Part shown: positions 2,420 to 64,000 of the stretch, piece after piece
Position numbering within the stretch: position 1 is the first letter of the stretch
Layout: every line of letters starts with the position of its first letter
Assembly: GCF_003605405.2 (NCBI RefSeq)
Contig: NZ_QYTW02000001.1
Span: 124,001-188,000, forward strand
Direction: 5' to 3'
DNA from: Siminovitchia terrae
Lineage (GTDB): Bacteria; Bacillota; Bacilli; Bacillales; Bacillaceae_C
DNA length: 64,000 bases
Notes under the pieces: generated by a model
Told to the model about the DNA's origin: nothing
The model's database searches: none
What the model saw: the letters and a program-made list of their open reading frames with translations, nothing else
Translations under genes and position numbers: made by a program

Positions 2420-2534
2420 ATTTAAAAGATGTGCTTGTAGAAGTGAAGAGGCCGTCGAAAAAATTAGTGGAAACCGAATAAGCTGGGTATCTCTCTCCAC
2501 TATCGGTAACCGTTTTTAATGAAAGCAGCAAAGA

Positions 2535-2551
2535 ACGGGCACTAAGCCCGT
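2535..2551 (-). terminator. Weak hairpin downstream of gcvPB
   Basis: ACGGGC and GCCCGT pair around a 5-base loop; on the minus strand TTCTTTGCTGC follows. It could be the first stop for the gcv operon before the stronger palindrome further on. The T tract is poor. Confidence 0.35.
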
Positions 2552-2634
2552 CCTAACGTCCACTTATCTTCGATTTGATTAATAATGAGCTTTCTGGACA
2601 GCCCCTAACAGAATCCCCGCAAGACCATTAAGTT

Positions 2635-4095
2635 TTATTCTTTAGTATAGCGAAGGATCGGCTTTCTTGCTGCCTGTGTTTCATCCAATCTTTTTACAGT
2701 TGTATTATGAGGTGCTTCCTGGACAATTTCAGGATTCTCTTCGGCTTCCTTAGCAATCTGAATCATCGCGTCAATGAAACCATCCAGCGTCTCTTTTGAT
2801 TCTGTTTCGGTTGGTTCAAACATCATACACTCTTCTACATTAATCGGGAAGTAAATAGTTGGCGGATGATAACCAAAATCAAGGAGTCGCTTAGCGATAT
2901 CTAACGTTCTAACACCCAGTTTCTTTTGACGGGCTCCACTTAACACAAATTCATGCTTACAGTGTGTGTCATACGGTAAATCGTAATAAGGAGCAAGCTT
3001 TCTCATCATATAGTTTGCATTTAAGACGGCGTATTCCGTAACGGCCTTGAGTCCATCCGGCCCCATTGAACGAATGTAAGTATAAGCTCTCACATTGATG
3101 CCGAAGTTTCCGTAATACGGTTTTACCCTTCCAATAGAGTTTGGCCTGTCATAGTCAATGACAAATTGATCATCTTTTTTCGTGATGACCGGTTTCGGAA
3201 GAAATGGGATCAAATCTTTTTTCACGCCGACAGGGCCTGAACCGGGTCCACCTCCACCATGCGGGCCAGTAAAAGTTTTATGGAGGTTTAAATGGACAAC
3301 ATCAAATCCCATGTCGCCAGGGCGTGCTTTAGACATGACCGCATTCAAGTTTGCTCCGTCATAGTAAAGCTTTCCTCCTGCTCCATGAACAATTTCTGCC
3401 ATCTCAAGAATTTGTTCCTCAAACAATCCAAGTGTATTTGGATTTGTCAGCATCAACGCGGCTGTATCCGATCCAACAAGTGACTTGAGATGCTCCAAGT
3501 CGACGAGACCGTCTTCTCCGGAACGGACCATTATTGTTTCAAGGCCCGCAACAGTAGCTGAGGCTGGATTGGTTCCATGAGCGGAATCAGGAACAATGAC
3601 CTTTGTGCGGTCCATCTCACCGTTTGCTTCATGGAAAGCACGGATCATCATCAGACCTGTCCACTCTCCATGTGCCCCTGCAGCAGTTTGCAGAGTGACT
3701 TCATCCATCCCTGTAATTTCTTTTAAATGTTCTTGCAAATCATACATCAGTTCCAAAGCACCCTGGATAGATGACTCTGGCTGCAGAGGGTGTATGTGGG
3801 CAAAACCTGGAATACGAGCGACAGCTTCATTGATTTTTGGATTGTATTTCATTGTACATGAACCTAGCGGATAAAATCCTGAGTCGATTCCATGGTTGTG
3901 GGTTGAGAGCTCGGTATAGTGCCTCATGATATCCAATTCGGAAACCTCAGGCAAATCAGGTTCCTCTTCCCTTAGATACCCCGTTGGAATGCATTGCTCA
4001 ATATCAATTTCCGGAACGTCGATATCAGGCAAACTGTATCCTATGCGTCCGGGTGTGGATTTTTCAAATATTAACGGCATAACCACTTCACTCAT
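2635..4095 (-). CDS. gcvPB: Glycine dehydrogenase (decarboxylating) subunit 2
   Basis: C-terminal half of the P-protein of the glycine cleavage system: with GcvPA it decarboxylates glycine with PLP and hands the aminomethyl group to lipoyl-H protein. It is 486 residues, the usual length. The PLP lysine is in [20 protein letters not shown], a family hallmark. [12 protein letters not shown] and [12 protein letters not shown] are also typical of subunit 2. The ATG overlaps the gcvPA stop by 4 bases (ATGA), so the two subunits are translationally coupled. It is the last gene of the riboswitch-controlled operon. Confidence 0.97.
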
Positions 4096-6613: not shown

Positions 6614-6656
6614 TAAAAAAAGACAGAAAAGCCCCATTAAAAGGTCTCTCTGTCTT
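6614..6656 (-). terminator. Riboswitch expression-platform hairpin
   Basis: Between the second glycine aptamer and gcvT. On the minus strand AAGACAGAGAGACC pairs with the later GGGGCTTTTCTGTC, followed by a run of seven T. This is an intrinsic terminator, expected to form when glycine is low. Confidence 0.75.
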
Positions 6657-6826
6657 GGTACCTGAAAGTTTGACCGGGTAGTTCCGGCTTTCCCCTTTGG
6701 TGGCTCCACATCGCGGAACACTCTCCAGAGCTGCGTCGGACAAGAGTCTTTTTGCCTGAGAGATTCACAGAATTTCTGCTTGCTCCTTCGGCGCTGTATA
6801 TACAGTCTCTCCTCTTGTCTTCATTC
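6657..6826 (-). ncRNA. Tandem glycine riboswitch (gcvT element)
   Basis: Two aptamers in series on the minus strand. The first has GGAGAGACTG, GCGCCGAAGGAGCAA and GAATCTCTCAGGCAAAA. The second has CTCTGGAGAGTG, CCACCAAAGGGGAAAG and CTTTCAGGTACC. These are the conserved blocks of the gcvT RNA family, which binds glycine in two linked pockets and turns on glycine cleavage genes when glycine is plentiful. It lies immediately upstream of gcvT. Confidence 0.95.
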
Positions 6827-6947
6827 GCCTATATTCTTTTAAAAACTGGTTATACTTATATGTATATGGGTTTCTGTCCATTGTATCGTATCATTCTTTA
6901 ACTTACTTTTCAAACTTTTTTCTTACAAATCCTTCAGGAGGTCTATC

Positions 6948-14127: not shown

Positions 14128-14712
14128 ATTATTGAATGCCTAAGGAGTGAATAACTTATTAATCGCTTAATAATGCCACGTCCAGCTCCAGCGCCTATCG
14201 ACTAGCAGACTTCGCTCCTCCTCCTACGATAAGTCAACATCGGCTCCGACGTACAGGATGTACTAGTGCATGCGAAGCGACAGGACGTCGCGCTTTGAGC
14301 CTGCCGACGGAAAGGATGTCCTAGTGCTTGCGAAGCGACAGGATGTCGCGTTTTGAGCCTGCCGAGTGCCATCGGCGTAAGAATTAAGTCAATCGCTGCT
14401 GAAGGCAAACTACACCTTCTTCAGCGCTTGTCTAGCTTTTCGCCGATAAGTAGGTATTCTCGCACTTCATTTTTCCTTTATCTCGTTGTAAGAGCTATTA
14501 TCTAGTTGCAGACGGCAGGGTCTCGAGGTCGCTTCGGTCAATCCAATGAAGAGACTTCGCTGGATTGACCTCCGTCGGACAGGATGTCCTAGTGCCGCCG
14601 GCACCACAGGACGTGGCGACATTCGGTGGCCAGCGCTTGTCGCCCCTAAACGCCGTCTTCCACATTTCAGCTCAGTCTATACGTCGATAAACAGGCGCTT
14701 GCGCTTTTTGTT
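14128..14712 (-). repeat. Long hairpin repeat (family 1), full-size copy
   Basis: About 580 bp without a gene. On the minus strand it begins just after the yqgX stop with GCGCAAGCGCCTGTTTATCG, then GACGTATAGACTGAGCTGAA, and ends in CTGGAGCTGGACG plus an A/T-rich tail. Short hairpins lie in it: GTAC-AGGAT-GTAC (14251–14263), GCGAC-AGGAC-GTCGC (14277–14291), GCGAC-AGGAT-GTCGC (14335–14349), GGAC-AGGAT-GTCC (14577–14589) and CCAC-AGGAC-GTGG (14604–14616). Stems differ but stay paired; loops are near constant. Open frames inside it are shadows of repeat sequence. Confidence 0.85.
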
Positions 14713-19879: not shown

Positions 19880-20180
19880 ACAGCGAAAGGCGCCCGCCTT
19901 ATCGGCGACAAGCACAAGGCGATTTGATGAGGGAGTTCTTCATCCACCACAGCAAAGCCCTCATTTCAATTACATCGTGAAAAGCTTCCTTGAATAAGCT
20001 GTGCTACAGGAGCACATTCTTCCTGAATAACCATCCACTCGAGCCGATGGCGCCTGGCCGCCTCAAGGCGCCACATCCTGTGGCTTCGGTGGCACTAGTA
20101 CTTCCTGTACGTCGGCAGGCTCAAAGCGCGACGTCCTGTCGCTTCGCTTGCACTAGTACTTCCTGTACGTCGTAACTAGA
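19880..20180 (+). repeat. Long hairpin repeat (family 1), partial copy
   Basis: About 300 bp between the gluP start and yqgO, without a gene. It opens with GCCTTATCGGCGACAAGCAC and ends with the hairpin core: GCCAC-ATCCT-GTGGC (20070–20084), GTAC-TTCCT-GTAC (20098–20110), GCGAC-GTCCT-GTCGC (20128–20142) and a second GTAC-TTCCT-GTAC (20156–20168). On the minus strand, downstream of yqgO, the loops read AGGAA or AGGAC. The middle resembles the 36.7-kb region (AAAGCTTCCTTGAATAAGCT). Confidence 0.8.
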
Positions 20181-26204: not shown

Positions 26205-26455
26205 TCGTCTGTTTATCGACGTACAGACTGAGCTGAAATACGGGAGACGGCGTTTAGGGGAGACAAGCGCTGACCGCCGAATGTCGTGACGTCCTGTGGC
26301 GCCGCGCGGCACTATGACATCCTATACGTCGGCAGGCTCAGAGCGCGACGTCCTGTCGCTTCGCTTGCACTAGTACATCCTTGTACGTCGGAGTTGGACA
26401 TAGCATGTAGTAAAAAATAAGCTATTCACAACTTAGGGATTTTATCATTTCCCTA
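26205..26455 (+). repeat. Long hairpin repeat (family 1), shortened copy
   Basis: Between the yqgE start and the sodA terminator. It begins GTCTGTTTATCGACGTACAG, then ACTGAGCTGAAAT, and has hairpins GCGAC-GTCCT-GTCGC (26345–26359) and GTAC-ATCCTT-GTAC (26373–26386). The A/T-rich tail (GCTATTCACAACTTAGG) matches the other copies. The middle section is deleted. The AGGA loops lie on the minus strand, downstream of sodA. Confidence 0.8.
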
Positions 26456-30076: not shown

Positions 30077-30573
30077 GCATAGGAAATTATTAAAATCTAT
30101 GCTTGTGTATAACTTGTTTATCAGGTTATGCTGCGTCCAGCTCAAGCGCCTATCGACTAGCAGACTTCGTGCCCAGTCAACATCGGCTTCGACGGACAGG
30201 ACGTCCTAGTACAGGCGAAGCGACAGGATGTCGCTGCTTGAGCCTGCCGAGTGCCCTCGGCGTAAGGATTAACCCAATCGCTGCTTAAGGCAAACTACGC
30301 CTTCTTCACCATTCGTCTAGCTTTGCGCCGATAAGCAGGCACTCTCGCACTTCATTTCTCCTTTATCTCGTTGTAGTCACTGTCCAGCTATAACGCTCAG
30401 CGACTAGCAGACTTCCTCTTCCTTCCTACGATAAGTCAACATCGATTCGCCTTCGGCTCACCGTGTTTCCTTTATCTCGTCAGGAGTCGTCCATTCTGTA
30501 CGTCACAAAACGAGTGTTTTCGCAATTCGCCTTAGTTTGTGCGTCGATAAACAGGCGCTTGCGCTTTTCTTCC
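30077..30573 (-). repeat. Long hairpin repeat (family 1), near-full copy
   Basis: About 500 bp between ispG and yqfX, no gene. On the minus strand it starts three bases or so after the yqfX stop (GAAAAGCGCAAGCGCCTGTT) and ends in the A/T-rich tail ATAACCTGATAAACAAGTTA, close to the tail of the copy after ispH. Hairpins on the plus strand: GGAC-AGGAC-GTCC (30194–30206) and GCGAC-AGGAT-GTCGC (30220–30234). Confidence 0.85.
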
Positions 30574-38581: not shown

Positions 38582-39155
38582 AGAACAAGAGCGCAAGCGC
38601 CTGCTCATCGACTTACAGACTGAGCTGAAATGTGGAAGACGACGTTTAGGGGCGACAAGCACTGGAGGTCAATCCAGTGAAGTCGTTCTTTGACTTCATT
38701 GGATTGACCGAAGCGACCTCGAGCCCCTGTCGTTTGCAACTAAACAACAGTGACTCCAACGAGATAAAGGAGAAGGAAAAGCAGAGAGTGCCTGTTTATC
38801 GGCGACAAGCATAAGACGAACGCTGAAGAAGGTGTATTTTACCTTCAACAGCGTTTGGCTTATGACCTCGAGCCGATGGCACTCGCAGCTGGACAACACG
38901 GCGACGAAGGCAGGTTCAAAACGCGACATCCTCTCGCTTCGCTTGCACTAGGACGTCCTGTCCTTCGGCAGGCTCAAGCAGCGACGTCCTGTCGCTTCGC
39001 CTGCACTAGGACGTCCTGTCCTTCGGAGCCGATGTTGACTTATCGTAGGAGGAGACGCGAAGTCTGCTAGTCGATAGGCGCTGGAGCTGGAGCTGGACGC
39101 AGCATAATCTGATAAACAAATTATACACAAGCATAGAATTTTATAATTTCCTATA
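38582..39155 (+). repeat. Long hairpin repeat (family 1), full-size copy
   Basis: About 570 bp between convergent ispH and yqfO, without a gene. Left end GCGCAAGCGCCTGCTCATCG; right part GTTGACTTATCGTAGGAGGA, GATAGGCGCTGGAGCTGG and an A/T-rich tail. Hairpins: GGAC-GTCCT-GTCC (38951–38963), GCGAC-GTCCT-GTCGC (38981–38995) and GGAC-GTCCT-GTCC (39009–39021). Inner inverted repeats such as CACTGGAGGTCAATCCAGTG also occur. Frames inside are shadows. Confidence 0.87.
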
Positions 39156-41783: not shown

Positions 41784-41808
41784 GGGTGCTTTTCATCTAA
41801 TAGCACCC
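41784..41808 (-). terminator. Hairpin at the end of the acyl-CoA dehydrogenase gene
   Basis: GGGTGC/GCACCC with a 13-base loop that includes the stop codon; only a weak T tract (TCTAATTTG) follows on the minus strand. Confidence 0.5.
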
Positions 41809-42939
41809 GACTTCTCTTGCAATAACCATACGTTGCACTTCAGAAGTGCCTTCCCCGATTTCCAATAATTTTGCATCCCTCATCATCCGCTCCACTTCAT
41901 ATTCACGCATATAACCATAACCTCCGTGAAGCTGGACAGCTTGATTTGTGATCTCCATGCATACTTCCGAAGCGAATAATTTGCACATCGATGCGTTTTG
42001 GGCAAAATGCCTTCCCTGATCCTTCAGCCATGCGGCCTTATAAACCATGTTCCGTGCCGCTTCAATTTTCATTGCCATATCAGCTATTTTAAATTGTGTA
42101 GCTTGAAACTGAGAAAGTGTCTTCCCAAACTGCTTGCGCTCTTTTACGTACTGCAAGGCCTTATCATAGGCTCCCTGAGCTATTCCGACAGCCATTGCCC
42201 CAATTCCGATTCTTCCTCCATCAAGCGTCCTAAGGAACTGTTTAAAGCCTTCCCCTTCTTTTCCCAGCAAATGATCTTTTCCGACTTTCACATTTTCCAG
42301 TATCAATTCAGTCGTGTCTGATGCATGCAATCCCATTTTCTCATATTGATTAATAATAGTGAACCCTTCCGCATCAGTAGGAATAATTATTGCACTTATT
42401 TGTTTTTCTCCGTTCTTTCTTCCAGTTATGGCCGTCAGCGCCACATGCCTTGCATAAGAAGCATTTGTTATGAAACATTTGCTTCCGTTAATGATATAGT
42501 TATCTCCTTCGAGGACTGCTGTCGTCTGTGTCCCTCCTGCGTCCGATCCAGCGTTTGGCTCTGTCAAACCGAATGCGCCCAAAGACTCCCCTCTACAGAT
42601 CGGAACCAAATATTTTTTCTTTTGTTCCTCTGTTCCAAACATATGAATAGGAGCGCCTCCAAGCGATATATGGGCAGAGTAGGTGATCCCGGTCGATGCA
42701 CATACACGGCTTAATTCCTCCGTCACAATGGCAAAACTTACGGTATCAGCACCTGCTCCCTCGTATTCTTCCGGAAACGGTAATCCCATCATCCCCAGAC
42801 TGGCAAGTTTTTTAAAAACTTCATTTGGAAACTCGCACTTCCTGTCCCGATCAACGGCACCAGGCGCAACTTCCTCTCGGGCAAATTCCCTGATGGTTCG
42901 CCTGATCATACTTTGTTCAGAAGTTAAGTCGAAATTCAT
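41797..42939 (-). CDS. Acyl-CoA dehydrogenase (short-chain type)
   Basis: 380 residues. Introduces the first double bond in fatty acyl-CoA using FAD. Family signatures: AFGLTEPNAGSDAGGTQTTA, CFITNASYA, QLHGGYGYMREYEVERMMRD and GEGTSEVQRMVIARE with the catalytic Glu. The start MNFDLTSEQSMI has AGGAGGAGGG upstream; the longer frame to 42981 runs into the -10 box. Absent from this place in B. subtilis but found here in some relatives. A candidate FadR operator lies upstream. Confidence 0.92.
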   Translation of the reverse strand: MNFDLTSEQSMIRRTIREFAREEVAPGAVDRDRKCEFPNEVFKKLASLGMMGLPFPEEYEGAGADTVSFAIVTEELSRVCASTGITYSAHISLGGAPIHMFGTEEQKKKYLVPICRGESLGAFGLTEPNAGSDAGGTQTTAVLEGDNYIINGSKCFITNASYARHVALTAITGRKNGEKQISAIIIPTDAEGFTIINQYEKMGLHASDTTELILENVKVGKDHLLGKEGEGFKQFLRTLDGGRIGIGAMAVGIAQGAYDKALQYVKERKQFGKTLSQFQATQFKIADMAMKIEAARNMVYKAAWLKDQGRHFAQNASMCKLFASEVCMEITNQAVQLHGGYGYMREYEVERMMRDAKLLEIGEGTSEVQRMVIAREVGCY

Positions 42940-42979
42940 TTTACCCTCCTCCTGCCTTTTGTATCCGCTTTCAACATTC

Positions 42980-43040
42980 ATTATATCTCTTTTTCCTTTT
43001 CCTTCTCAAGACAAATGATATTTTGAAATGAAAATTCATT
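42980..43040 (-). promoter_or_regulatory. Promoter and FadR-like operator of the acyl-CoA dehydrogenase gene
   Basis: On the minus strand: TTGAGA (43004–43009), 18 bases, perfect TATAAT (42980–42985). Upstream lies AATGA-AAAT-TCATT (43027–43040), matching both half-sites of the Bacillus FadR operator TGAATGAMTANTCATTCA. It sits about 17 bases before the -35. Regulation by FadR is an inference; no FadR gene is in the window. Confidence 0.55.
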
Positions 43041-43186
43041 TTATTGATATATTATTTTCATTATTAAAACCCCAAAAATACTCATTTTAAATTATTTTAG
43101 AATAACATTTTAGCGCTCTTTAAAATCTATCGACAAAAGGAGCCAAAATCTCGGTTTGCAAAAGCAGAATGGATTCAGTAAAATAA

Positions 43187-44157
43187 GTGTCAAATTTAAA
43201 TAATAAAGCGTTTGCGCCTAGATGTACCAAAACAGGAAGCAGCTGTACAGTACCGGACACCTCTGATAGCCAGACATATCCCTCTGTCTATCGGCAGGCT
43301 CAAGAAGCGACGTCCTGTCGCTTTCGCTTGACTAGTACATCCCTGCGCGTCGCAGGCTCAGTACGCGACGTCCTGTCGCCTCGCTTGCACTAGCACGTCC
43401 CTGTGCGTCGCAGGCTTAGTACACGACGTCCTGTCGCCTCGCTTGCACTAGCACGTCCCTGTGCGTCGCAGGCTTAGTACACGACGTCCTGTCGCCTCGC
43501 TTGCACTAGCACGTCCCTGTGCGTCGCAGGCTTAGTACACGACGTCCTGTCGCCTCGCTTGCACTAGCACGTCCCTGTGCGTCGCAGGCTTAGTACACGA
43601 CGTCCTGTCGCCTCGCTTGCACTAGCACGTCCCTGTGCGTCGCAGGCTTAGTACACGACGTCCTGTCGCCTCGCTTGCACTAGCACGTCCCTGTGCGTCG
43701 CAGGCTTAGTACACGACGTCCTGTCGCCTCGCTTGCACTAGCACGTCCCTGTGCGTCGCAGGCTTAGTACACGACGTCCTGTCGCCTCGCTTGCACTAGC
43801 ACGTCCCTGTGCGTCGCAGGCTTAGTACACGACGTCCTGTCGCCTCGCTTGCACTAGCACGTCCCTGTGCGTCGCAGGCTTAGTACACGACGTCCTGTCG
43901 CCTCGCTTGCACTAGCACGTCCCTGTGCGTCGCAGGCTTAGTACACGACGTCCTGTCGCCTCGCTTGCACTAGCACGTCCCTGTGCGTCGCAGGCTTAGT
44001 ACACGACGTCCTGTCGCCTCGCTTGCACTAGCACGTCCCTGTGCGTCGCAGGCTTAGTACACGACGTCCTGTCGCTTCGCTTGCACTAGTACATCCCTGC
44101 ACATCGCAGGCTCAGTACACGACATCCGGTAGCACTATTAATTTCTGTGCGCCGCAC
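43187..44157 (-). repeat. Tandem array of 58-bp units from family 1 repeats
   Basis: Twelve identical 58-bp units at 43367–44062 (start GACGTCCTGTCGCCTCGCTT, end GTCGCAGGCTTAGTACAC), flanked by degenerate units at 43309, 44063 and 44121. On the minus strand each unit holds two hairpins, GCAC-AGGGAC-GTGC and CGAC-AGGAC-GTCG. No gene is seen: frames across it are repeats. It lies between the sigA terminator and the acyl-CoA dehydrogenase promoter. There are no variable spacers, so it is not CRISPR. Assembly could have changed the copy number. Confidence 0.95.
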
Positions 44158-44197: not shown

Positions 44198-44227
44198 AAA
44201 AAAAAAGCCCCCGGGATTACGGGAGGC
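44198..44227 (-). terminator. Terminator of sigA
   Basis: On the minus strand GCCTCCCG…CGGGGGC stem, one bulge, then nine T. Read-through would enter the 58-bp array. Confidence 0.8.
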
Positions 44228-44238
44228 GCATTGATCTA

Positions 44239-45372
44239 TTATTCAAGAAAATCTTTCAAACGTTTGCTTCTGCTCGGATGTCTCAGCTTTCTTAGAGCTT
44301 TTGCTTCGATTTGTCTGATACGCTCGCGAGTTACACCAAAGACTTTACCGACTTCTTCCAATGTCCGAGTACGGCCATCATCAAGTCCAAAACGGAGACG
44401 AAGTACATTTTCTTCCCTGTCGGTCAATGTGTCAAGGACATCTTCGAGTTGTTCTTTAAGCAGTTCATACGCGGCATGATCAGATGGAGAAGTGGCTTCC
44501 TGGTCTTCAATGAAGTCTCCAAGATGAGAGTCATCTTCTTCACCAATTGGTGTTTCAAGTGAAACAGGCTCTTGAGCGATCTTTAAGATTTCTCTGACTT
44601 TATCAGGCGTCAGATCCATTTCTTCTGCAATTTCTTCCGGAGTTGGTTCCCGGCCAAGGTCCTGGAGCAACTGACGCTGAACTCTGATTAATTTATTGAT
44701 GGTTTCAACCATATGAACAGGAATACGTATCGTCCTTGCCTGGTCCGCAATAGCGCGTGTAATGGCCTGCCTGATCCACCACGTGGCGTACGTACTGAAC
44801 TTAAAACCTTTCCTATGGTCAAATTTTTCTACGGCTTTAATCAGGCCCATGTTGCCTTCCTGTATCAAATCAAGAAACAGCATACCGCGGCCTACATACC
44901 GTTTGGCAATACTGACTACAAGCCGCAAGTTTGCTTCAGCAAGCCTTTTCTTCGCTTCTTCGTCCCCTTGTTCAATCCTCTCAGCCAGCTCCACTTCTTC
45001 TTCCGCTGATAGAAGGTCCACCCTACCGATTTCTTTCAGATACATACGAACAGGGTCGTTTATTTTAACTCCGGGAGGGACGCTTAAATCATTTAAATCA
45101 AATTCTTCTTCGTCTTCTTTTTGAATATCGTTAACATCAGGGTCTGCATCCTCATCATCAGTATCTTCTTCAAGAACTTCAACCCCATGATGACTCAGCA
45201 TTTCGTAAAATTCATCCATCTGATCGGAATCCAGATCAAAATGGGCGAGATTACTTGCAATGCGTTCATATGTTAAAGTCCCCCGCTTCTTGCCTTGTTC
45301 AAGCAATTGTTCTTTTGCCTGCTCGAGGGTTAGTTCATTTTCTGATACACTGGAACGTGCTTTTTCAGCCAT
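44239..45372 (-). CDS. sigA: Main vegetative sigma factor SigA (RpoD)
   Basis: 377 residues from [14 protein letters not shown], with GGAGGGGG 4 bases before the ATG. Region 1.1 is acidic, then region 1.2 ([20 protein letters not shown]), 2.3–2.4 ([20 protein letters not shown]), region 3 and region 4.2 ([20 protein letters not shown]). Recognises TTGACA/TATAAT promoters as core polymerase subunit. It follows dnaG by 34 bases, the standard yqxD-dnaG-sigA arrangement. Confidence 0.98.
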
Positions 45373-45406
45373 ACGTCCCCCTCCTTCCAAACATTTGCGC
45401 ACCCGG

Positions 45407-52824: not shown

Positions 52825-53035
52825 AAAAAACTCCCATCCCTATGCTCAATTAGCATAGGGACGAGAGTTAACCCGCGGTTCCACCCTATTTGCCGCAATA
52901 ATCGGCCACTTTCATTTTCCCGCTCAGGACTGCCTTCACTGCCATTACCATGCCCGGCTTGCACCTTCCCGGGTTCGCTGAAATGGATTAGAACAGCTAC
53001 TACTTTCCGTCTTAGCAGGATATATAGTTACTAAA
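52825..53035 (-). ncRNA. tRNA-Gly-sensing T-box leader of glyQS
   Basis: On the minus strand the T-box sequence AGGGTGGAACCGCGGG is followed by the terminator AACTCTCGTCCCTATGC… GCATAGGGATGGGAGTT and seven T (52830–52870). Upstream is the stem I with GGAAAGTAGTAGC (AGTA bulge). The specifier is most likely GGC (52932–52934) in GAAGGCAGTCCTGAGC, aligned with the B. subtilis glyQS leader. Uncharged tRNA-Gly would stabilise the antiterminator and turn on the operon. Confidence 0.95.
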
Positions 53036-63939: not shown

Positions 63940-64000
63940 AGGTTGCCAAATTAGAAGGTCGACTAAAGACGCCACGTCCTGTGGCAACGTCGACACTAGC
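63940..64000 (+). repeat. Family 1 repeat cut by the window edge
   Basis: The hairpin GCCAC-GTCCT-GTGGC at 63971–63985 followed by GTCGACACTAGC matches the family core. It lies upstream of floA where another gene is expected; the rest is outside the window. Confidence 0.7.

Follow-up and report, generated by a model that had tools for sequence, protein, structure and literature searches.

The window, i.e. the whole stretch of 64,000 nucleotides of Siminovitchia terrae DNA analysed here, contains a tandem array of short repeats in the intergenic region behind sigA, with an acyl-CoA dehydrogenase gene on the other flank. The features of this region are the following:

41797..42981, minus strand, acyl-CoA dehydrogenase gene (Pfam), on the other flank of the array
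43155..43184, plus strand, promoter-like hexamers pointing into the array (only a 9/12 consensus match, in an AT-rich region)
43206..43219, minus strand, another terminator-like site, of 5 pairs and weaker than that of sigA, where the array ends on the 3' side of the minus strand
43294..44151, plus strand (Bacillaceae-1, RUCCU-loop orientation), tandem array of 15 full or partial 58-bp units (TRF, profile matches, cmscan, hairpin counts)
44208..44225, minus strand, terminator-like site of sigA, separating this gene from the array
44239..45402, minus strand, sigA, primary sigma factor (Pfam Sigma70 r1.1, r1.2, r2, r3 and r4)

TRF delimited the array at 43308-44127 (period 58, 14.1 copies, 97% matches) and a profile search recovered 15 full or partial units over 43294-44151. 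An identical 58-mer occurs exactly 12 times within 43187-44157, the edge units being different from the core units. The minus strand of this segment carries 14 CGAC-AGGAC-GTCG and 12 GCAC-AGGGAC-GTGC motifs, together 26 GGA-loop hairpin motifs, and the plus strand none; a chance origin was rejected, as 200 mononucleotide shuffles gave a mean of 0.73 and a maximum of 4. The CsrA-like AGGAY loops of the array are thus those of the minus strand and, by sequence, the many GGA motifs in hairpin loops that are typical of CsrB-type RNAs are present. These counts confirm the repeat array with GGA-loop hairpins reported in the initial annotation, with about 14 units, 12 of them identical. The loop formula CAGGA(C/U)G given there applies only in part, since all 14 loops of this type in the array read CAGGACG and the CAGGAUG form is found in other copies of the family. 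The reported match of GCACAGGGACGU to the SELEX consensus RUACARGGAUGU at 10 of 12 positions is correct, and the 12 hexaloops of the array fit ACANGGANGU. A search of phage and plasmid collections with 116 bases of the array gave no blastn match at E<=1e-3 in either, and an origin from such elements was rejected.

On the plus strand, the array units align end to end with the Rfam family Bacillaceae-1 (RF01690) at 23.5-28.3 bits (cmscan), without reaching the gathering score of 35. Their P2 loop, GTCCT, fits the RUCCU type, and their P3 loop, GTCCCT, is one base longer. Other Rfam families gave only weak sub-threshold matches over the array (P37, Ysr224). The 2010 report of Bacillaceae-1 is said to be by Weinberg, and the 2014 prediction that CsrA recognises its reverse complement reportedly comes from Gardner and Eldai. 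According to the part of the 2010 text consulted (Genome Biol., PMC2864571), the family was described without a function; it shares with the array three helices, RUCCU-type loops, repeated units and Bacillaceae hosts. The array differs from it by its score below 35, the extra C in the second loop and the 58-bp head-to-tail units, and the family units are here embedded in further modules, designated A, B, C and D. In the consulted part of the 2014 article (Nucleic Acids Res., PMC4333381), the reverse complement of Bacillaceae-1 is proposed to bind CsrA, validation being pending, and the discoverers of the family are said not to have been confident of its strand. This prediction concerns the same strand and the same loops as those put forward in the initial annotation, in which a CsrA-titrating RNA was considered undescribed in Bacillus; the CsrA idea is therefore not new for the family. 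It was made at the family level and called untested by its authors, and the array is absent from the part of the text consulted. No experimental test of the CsrA link was found in the literature on RF01690/Bacillaceae-1, as far as the accessible portions of these texts go. B. subtilis carries 8 copies of Bacillaceae-1 according to the consulted part of another report (PMC8208703).

Related units, missed by the initial annotation, occur elsewhere in the window near 14.3, 14.6, 20.1, 26.3, 30.2, 38.9 and 63.9 kb and belong to the following copies:

14180..14697, minus strand, dispersed full-type copy with modules A, B, C, three hairpin units and D
20046..20170, plus strand, dispersed copy of two units
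26206..26388, plus strand, dispersed copy with module A and two units
30135..30355, minus strand, dispersed copy with module C, one unit and D
38598..39091, plus strand, dispersed full-type copy with modules A, B, C, two units and D
63947..64000, plus strand, canonical Bacillaceae-1 copy truncated where the window stops; the whole copy (C1:187947-188012) scores 60.8 bits

In the complete genome assembly (5.30 Mb, 68 contigs), RF01690 gave at least 144 matches at E<=10, with at least 32 over the cut-off (150 of 722 candidates scored), and at least 82 matches at E<=0.01 (95 of 719 candidates scored). The weak end at E<=10 holds chance matches, since 12 of 14 control genomes also match at this loose limit; at E<=0.01, B. 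subtilis is the only control genome that matches. A total of 218 unit matches, found in 81 sources of this genome (the window and 80 regions, a few of them overlapping), fall into 103 tandem groups, of which 41 consist of one unit, 42 of two, 12 of three and three of four; the remainder are arrays with 5, 7, 7, 11 and 15 units. The order of the modules around the units is fixed, with A on the 5' side in 36 of 37 placements, C on the 5' side in 65 of 71 and D on the 3' side in 26 of 32.

Several additional observations concern the larger elements. In the large modular element (14180-14697, 26206-26388, 38598-39091), hairpin modules B and C stand around the Bacillaceae-1 units, and its two outer ends, a starting GCGCCT..TATCGAC and a closing GTCGATAGGCGC, are complementary. 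At about 2470-3000 of one region of contig 34 (G000:C34, locus L118), module A, a hairpin unit and module B are present together in three copies with a 178-bp period, indicating that tandem expansion also affects bigger portions of the mosaic. The other long array, that of 11 units, is in the same contig (L117, 2500-3133); additional groups of units flank it on both sides at distances of up to about 2 kb.

Within the set of near relatives, RF01690 was detected in 22 of 40 genomes (this genome included), and its number of matches at E<=0.01 ranges from 2 to 82 within one genus, these values being minima with 95 candidates scored per genome. The family displays many dispersed copies together with an element-free site in relatives, as expected of a dispersed mobile repeat. 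REP and MITE sequences are small dispersed stem-loop repeats of this general kind. According to the consulted part of the literature (PMC2267715), repeats such as bcr1 and Bhal-1 are, like the present ones, short, intergenic and hairpin-forming, with tens to hundreds of copies; the difference is that a search for Y1 transposases revealed no transposase attributable to the repeats studied here. A Y1 transposase is encoded in 33 of the 40 genomes (this one included) and is missing from two repeat-rich ones with 77 and 73 matches, and it was therefore rejected as the mobiliser.

As initially annotated, the array follows sigA in the direction of its transcription, but an intrinsic terminator-like site (44225-44208) lies between the two. 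A similar stem followed by a T run also stands behind sigA in five congeners (by eye). No minus-strand promoter-like site was detected between the sigA terminator and the array, nor inside the array; the production of an array RNA by read-through or from a local promoter, as was proposed, is not supported by these results. The weaker site at 43206..43219 could, by its sequence, end a minus-strand transcript; the two terminator-like sites found compare with 1.5 expected in shuffles. Two unit patterns searched over 1300 bp behind sigA revealed no unit in 4 of the 5 congeners. By eye, over 420 bp, the element is lacking in three of them (G002, G004 and G005), while a remnant is seen in G001 and two diverged units in G003. 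The array is therefore not a conserved gene of close relatives, as a CsrB-type RNA gene would be, being present in 0 of 5 congeners with two units in one. Both the presence of the element and the number of its units at this site are lineage-specific, the 14-unit state being restricted, as far as seen, to the present lineage.

The segment 43090-43200, with the acyl-CoA dehydrogenase gene on one side and the sigA terminator on the other, looks conserved in the congeners (by eye), its minus strand reading TTTTGCAAACCG..TTTTGTCGATAGA. The exact 58-bp-unit pattern has Siminovitchia fordii and Bacillus norwichensis among its named carriers, in addition to Bacillus sp. HF117_J1_D. The unit is also found in a record titled Bacillus subtilis DE0224 (L267), possibly a misnamed genome.

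The genes whose search was recommended with the initial annotation, csrA and fliW, are both present and adjacent on contig 8 (csrA at 84.8 bits), which agrees with the statement that the window itself holds no csrA. The host CsrA presumably keeps L4, R6 and R44 (sequence read by eye). The hag leader of the host contains UCAC-AAGGAU-GUGA upstream of the Shine-Dalgarno sequence (read by eye). As described in the consulted part of a review (PMC7652899), the CsrB repeat is CAGGA(U/A/C)G and the SELEX consensus RUACARGGAUGU has its AC and GU paired; the minus-strand loops fit the former and the frame of the latter, in agreement with the initial annotation. Loop conservation was assessed on 145 distinct units of this genome (from 180 near-full among 215 aligned) and 114 distinct copies from 47 other genomes (from 128 complete among 144 aligned), the aligned loci being chosen among the best-scoring ones. 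The closing C-G pair and the AGGA (block CAGGA.G) are nearly invariant in the family, and the pairs further out covary. On the minus strand, GGA is followed by G in no more than 4 of 518 loop columns, and in many by A, a pattern that fits CsrB and not the R of RUCCU. The position of the extra loop base was dropped as a test of an ANGGAN preference, since the 4 distinct hexaloop cases of this genome (AC...GU frame) and 2 unrelated ones were too few.

The relation of the family to csrA was examined at several taxonomic scales. Across the order, RF01690 is present in 195 of 375 csrA-positive and 3 of 22 csrA-negative genomes (Fisher p=6e-4; the unlisted negatives G367 and G386 were assigned by elimination), and across the class in 77 of 233 and 3 of 165, respectively (counted by eye). 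Within the eight families having csrA-negative members, 2 repeat-positive negatives were observed vs 5.56 expected (p=0.016), with strata drawn by eye and G367, G386 and G057 left out. This co-occurrence is confounded by descent, and csrA cannot sort the near relatives since it is present in 40 of 40 genomes, this one included, and the repeat in 22 of 40.

The retention of GGA gave contrasted patterns among csrA-less genomes. In G074, GGA is found in 0 of 12 scored loops of 11 copies, the hairpins remaining; one of the scored hairpins may be stray and one unscored loop (L243) still reads GGA. These copies are L224, L229, L234, L238, L241, L243, L245 and L247-L250, L246 belonging to G588. The csrA-positive congener of G074, G399, has GGA in 3 of 4 loops. 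Four other csrA-less genomes, G588, G075, G057 and G651, display GGA in 29 of 31 scored loops, a count in which two overlapping G075 loci may be included twice, and to which G484 contributed no scored loop. Among 47 csrA-positive genomes, GGA is absent from 46 of 284 scored loops, some of which are stray hairpins, and the usual change there affects the first G, giving ACGAU or AUGAC. Such a comparison of csrA-positive and csrA-less genomes makes the 2014 prediction decidable, G074 being almost devoid of GGA and G588 keeping it. Binding by CsrA would give Bacilli a type of CsrA-titrating RNA layer that the consulted part of the literature places in Gammaproteobacteria; if CsrA does not bind, a strong look-alike is removed.

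The working strand was approached through gene contexts, established with a purpose-written simple gene caller, and through wobble pairs. In this genome, the minus strand of the elements is in sense in 47 of 68 tandem-gene contexts (p=0.002), and in the relatives the bias (41 vs 32) is not significant (p=0.35). Among the cases within reach in this genome, a terminator-like site stands between the gene and the element in 10 of the 69 with the minus strand in sense and in none of the 41 with the plus strand in sense, leaving 59 of the 69 elements downstream of a minus-sense gene without such a site; the corresponding counts in the relatives are 8 of 58 and 6 of 49. With so few intervening sites, many copies may ride in transcript tails, on either strand. 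At the array at 43294-44151, such a site does intervene. On the plus strand, the units of this genome have 51 A-C vs 20 G-U pairs when pair 4-34 is excluded, which amounts to more G-U on the minus strand; the numbers are 45 vs 20 when counted once per locus (p=0.003) and 15 vs 13 as kinds of pair state. The relatives have 40 A-C vs 7 G-U on the plus strand, with 27 of the A-C in the two outer P1 pairs, and 12 vs 5 once these and the outermost P3 pair are removed. This signal is modest and partly mutational, since control modules are also skewed to G>A (170/2402) over C>T (80/1487, summed by hand). The P1 pair 4-34, G-U on the plus strand (A-C on the minus strand) in 110 of 145 units of this genome, favours the plus strand. 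In the 114 copies of the relatives, the 1929 ungapped pairs read on the plus strand comprise 1844 Watson-Crick, 7 G-U, 40 A-C and 38 other pairs, vs 16 G-U and 1 A-C among 245 pairs of tRNA acceptor stems (35 of 39 distinct tRNAs used). Compared with tRNA, few G-U pairs are therefore present on either strand, as a hairpin acting at the DNA level would show.

In folding predictions for a 290-nt piece of the array RNA, the closing-pair probability of the minus-strand hairpins is near 0, because pairing occurs between neighbouring units instead; on the plus strand, the P3 loop does better and is mostly open. Over nearly the whole minus strand of the array, GGA is predicted to be open with a probability above one half in 4 of 30 cases without span limit, in 7 at a pairing span of 150, 16 at 60 and 28 at 40, vs 19 of 22 at every span in E. 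coli CsrB. A GGA accessibility as high as in CsrB is predicted for the array at the span of 40 only; local folding during transcription could still present the GGA loops. Five other copies of the window have 5 of 29 GGA predicted open on the AGGAY strand, and the two-unit relative in G003 has 2 of 3. Compared with 200 shuffles, a single unit is unusually stable on neither strand (56 as good on plus, 17 on minus), and two units are so on the plus strand (3 as good) and not on the minus strand (51 as good). In the minimum-energy folds of the canonical elements of the relatives, 107 of 203 motif loops form on the minus strand and 98 of 203 on the plus strand; in 107 of 114 copies, the minus-strand fold has the greater stability.

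Altogether, we consider it probable that the array arose by recent tandem expansion, at this locus, of the core of a dispersed Bacillaceae-1-type repeat, rather than being a conserved small RNA gene. A modular repeat of this type would have arrived in the intergenic region beyond the terminator of sigA, and its 58-bp two-hairpin core would then have multiplied, by what we infer to be slippage or unequal recombination. Any RNA function would belong to the single element in transcript tails, which would present two paired GGA hairpins of CsrA type on its minus strand. The number of units could have been distorted by the assembly, a draft of 68 contigs facing 12 identical 58-mers, but other arrays exist in the same genome, a relative has two units at the same site and the edge units are not identical to the core, making an artefact hardly credible. 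The dedicated CsrB-like sponge of the initial annotation, in which the minus strand would be transcribed and would titrate CsrA through 24-26 GGA hairpins, retains its 26 motifs and fitting hexaloops, the presence of csrA, fliW and a CsrA-type hag leader, the weak terminator-like site at 43219-43206 and the 28 of 30 GGA open under a 40-nt pairing limit, as local co-transcriptional folding might give. The array also shares with CsrB, CsrC and RsmZ its many CAGGA(U/C/A)G loops. It is unlike them in the absence of a detected promoter or conserved gene and in its low predicted GGA accessibility (4 of 30 in the unlimited ensemble), and its host, unlike theirs, has the FliW route. With a terminator in front and an origin from a dispersed repeat in addition, we regard such a sponge as very unlikely. 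Recognition by CsrA is an appealing idea at the level of the family, and a weak one for the array as a gene.

For the family as a whole, the main competing explanation is a REP/MITE-like repeat acting at the DNA level, whose hairpins would serve its spread through single-strand or cruciform recognition and whose RNA would have no role. A selfish DNA repeat would likewise account for its distribution and covariation; the high copy number, the patchy occurrence among near relatives and within one genus, the element-free site in congeners and the rarity of G-U pairs (7 of 1929 vs 16 of 245 in tRNA acceptor stems) argue in this direction, and the failure of the Y1 search to provide a mobilising enzyme, the association with csrA and the identity of the loop letters with the CsrB repeat argue against it, so that we hold it to be quite possible while stopping short of calling it probable. 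That CsrA binds the AGGAY strand of the family in the cell is conceivable, and in our estimate rather doubtful. A broader proposal, in which a mobile repeat would have spread hundreds of paired CsrA-binding hairpins in the transcript tails of many Bacillales, seems unlikely; in it, the mRNAs would together titrate CsrA as a distributed sponge, in addition to FliW, the loops would retain GGA only as long as the genome has csrA, and arrays would be local increases in dose. Also unlikely is the plus strand as the working RNA, with its RUCCU loops complementary to, for example, the Shine-Dalgarno AGGA: the orientation drawn in Rfam, pair 4-34, the stability of the two-unit fold (3 of 200 shuffles as good or better, vs 51 of 200 on the minus strand) and the mostly open P3 loop speak for it, against the excess of A-C over G-U in the other pairs (51 to 20), the base after GGA, which leaves the R of RUCCU unfitted, and the greater stability of the minus strand in nearly all canonical copies.

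Two further regulatory RNA candidates were observed on the minus strand of the window: a T-box leader match at 52854-53022, with 77 bits for a gathering score of 93, and a tandem glycine riboswitch at 6646-6828, with RF00504 above its cut-off at 6734-6824 and the longer model just below its own.
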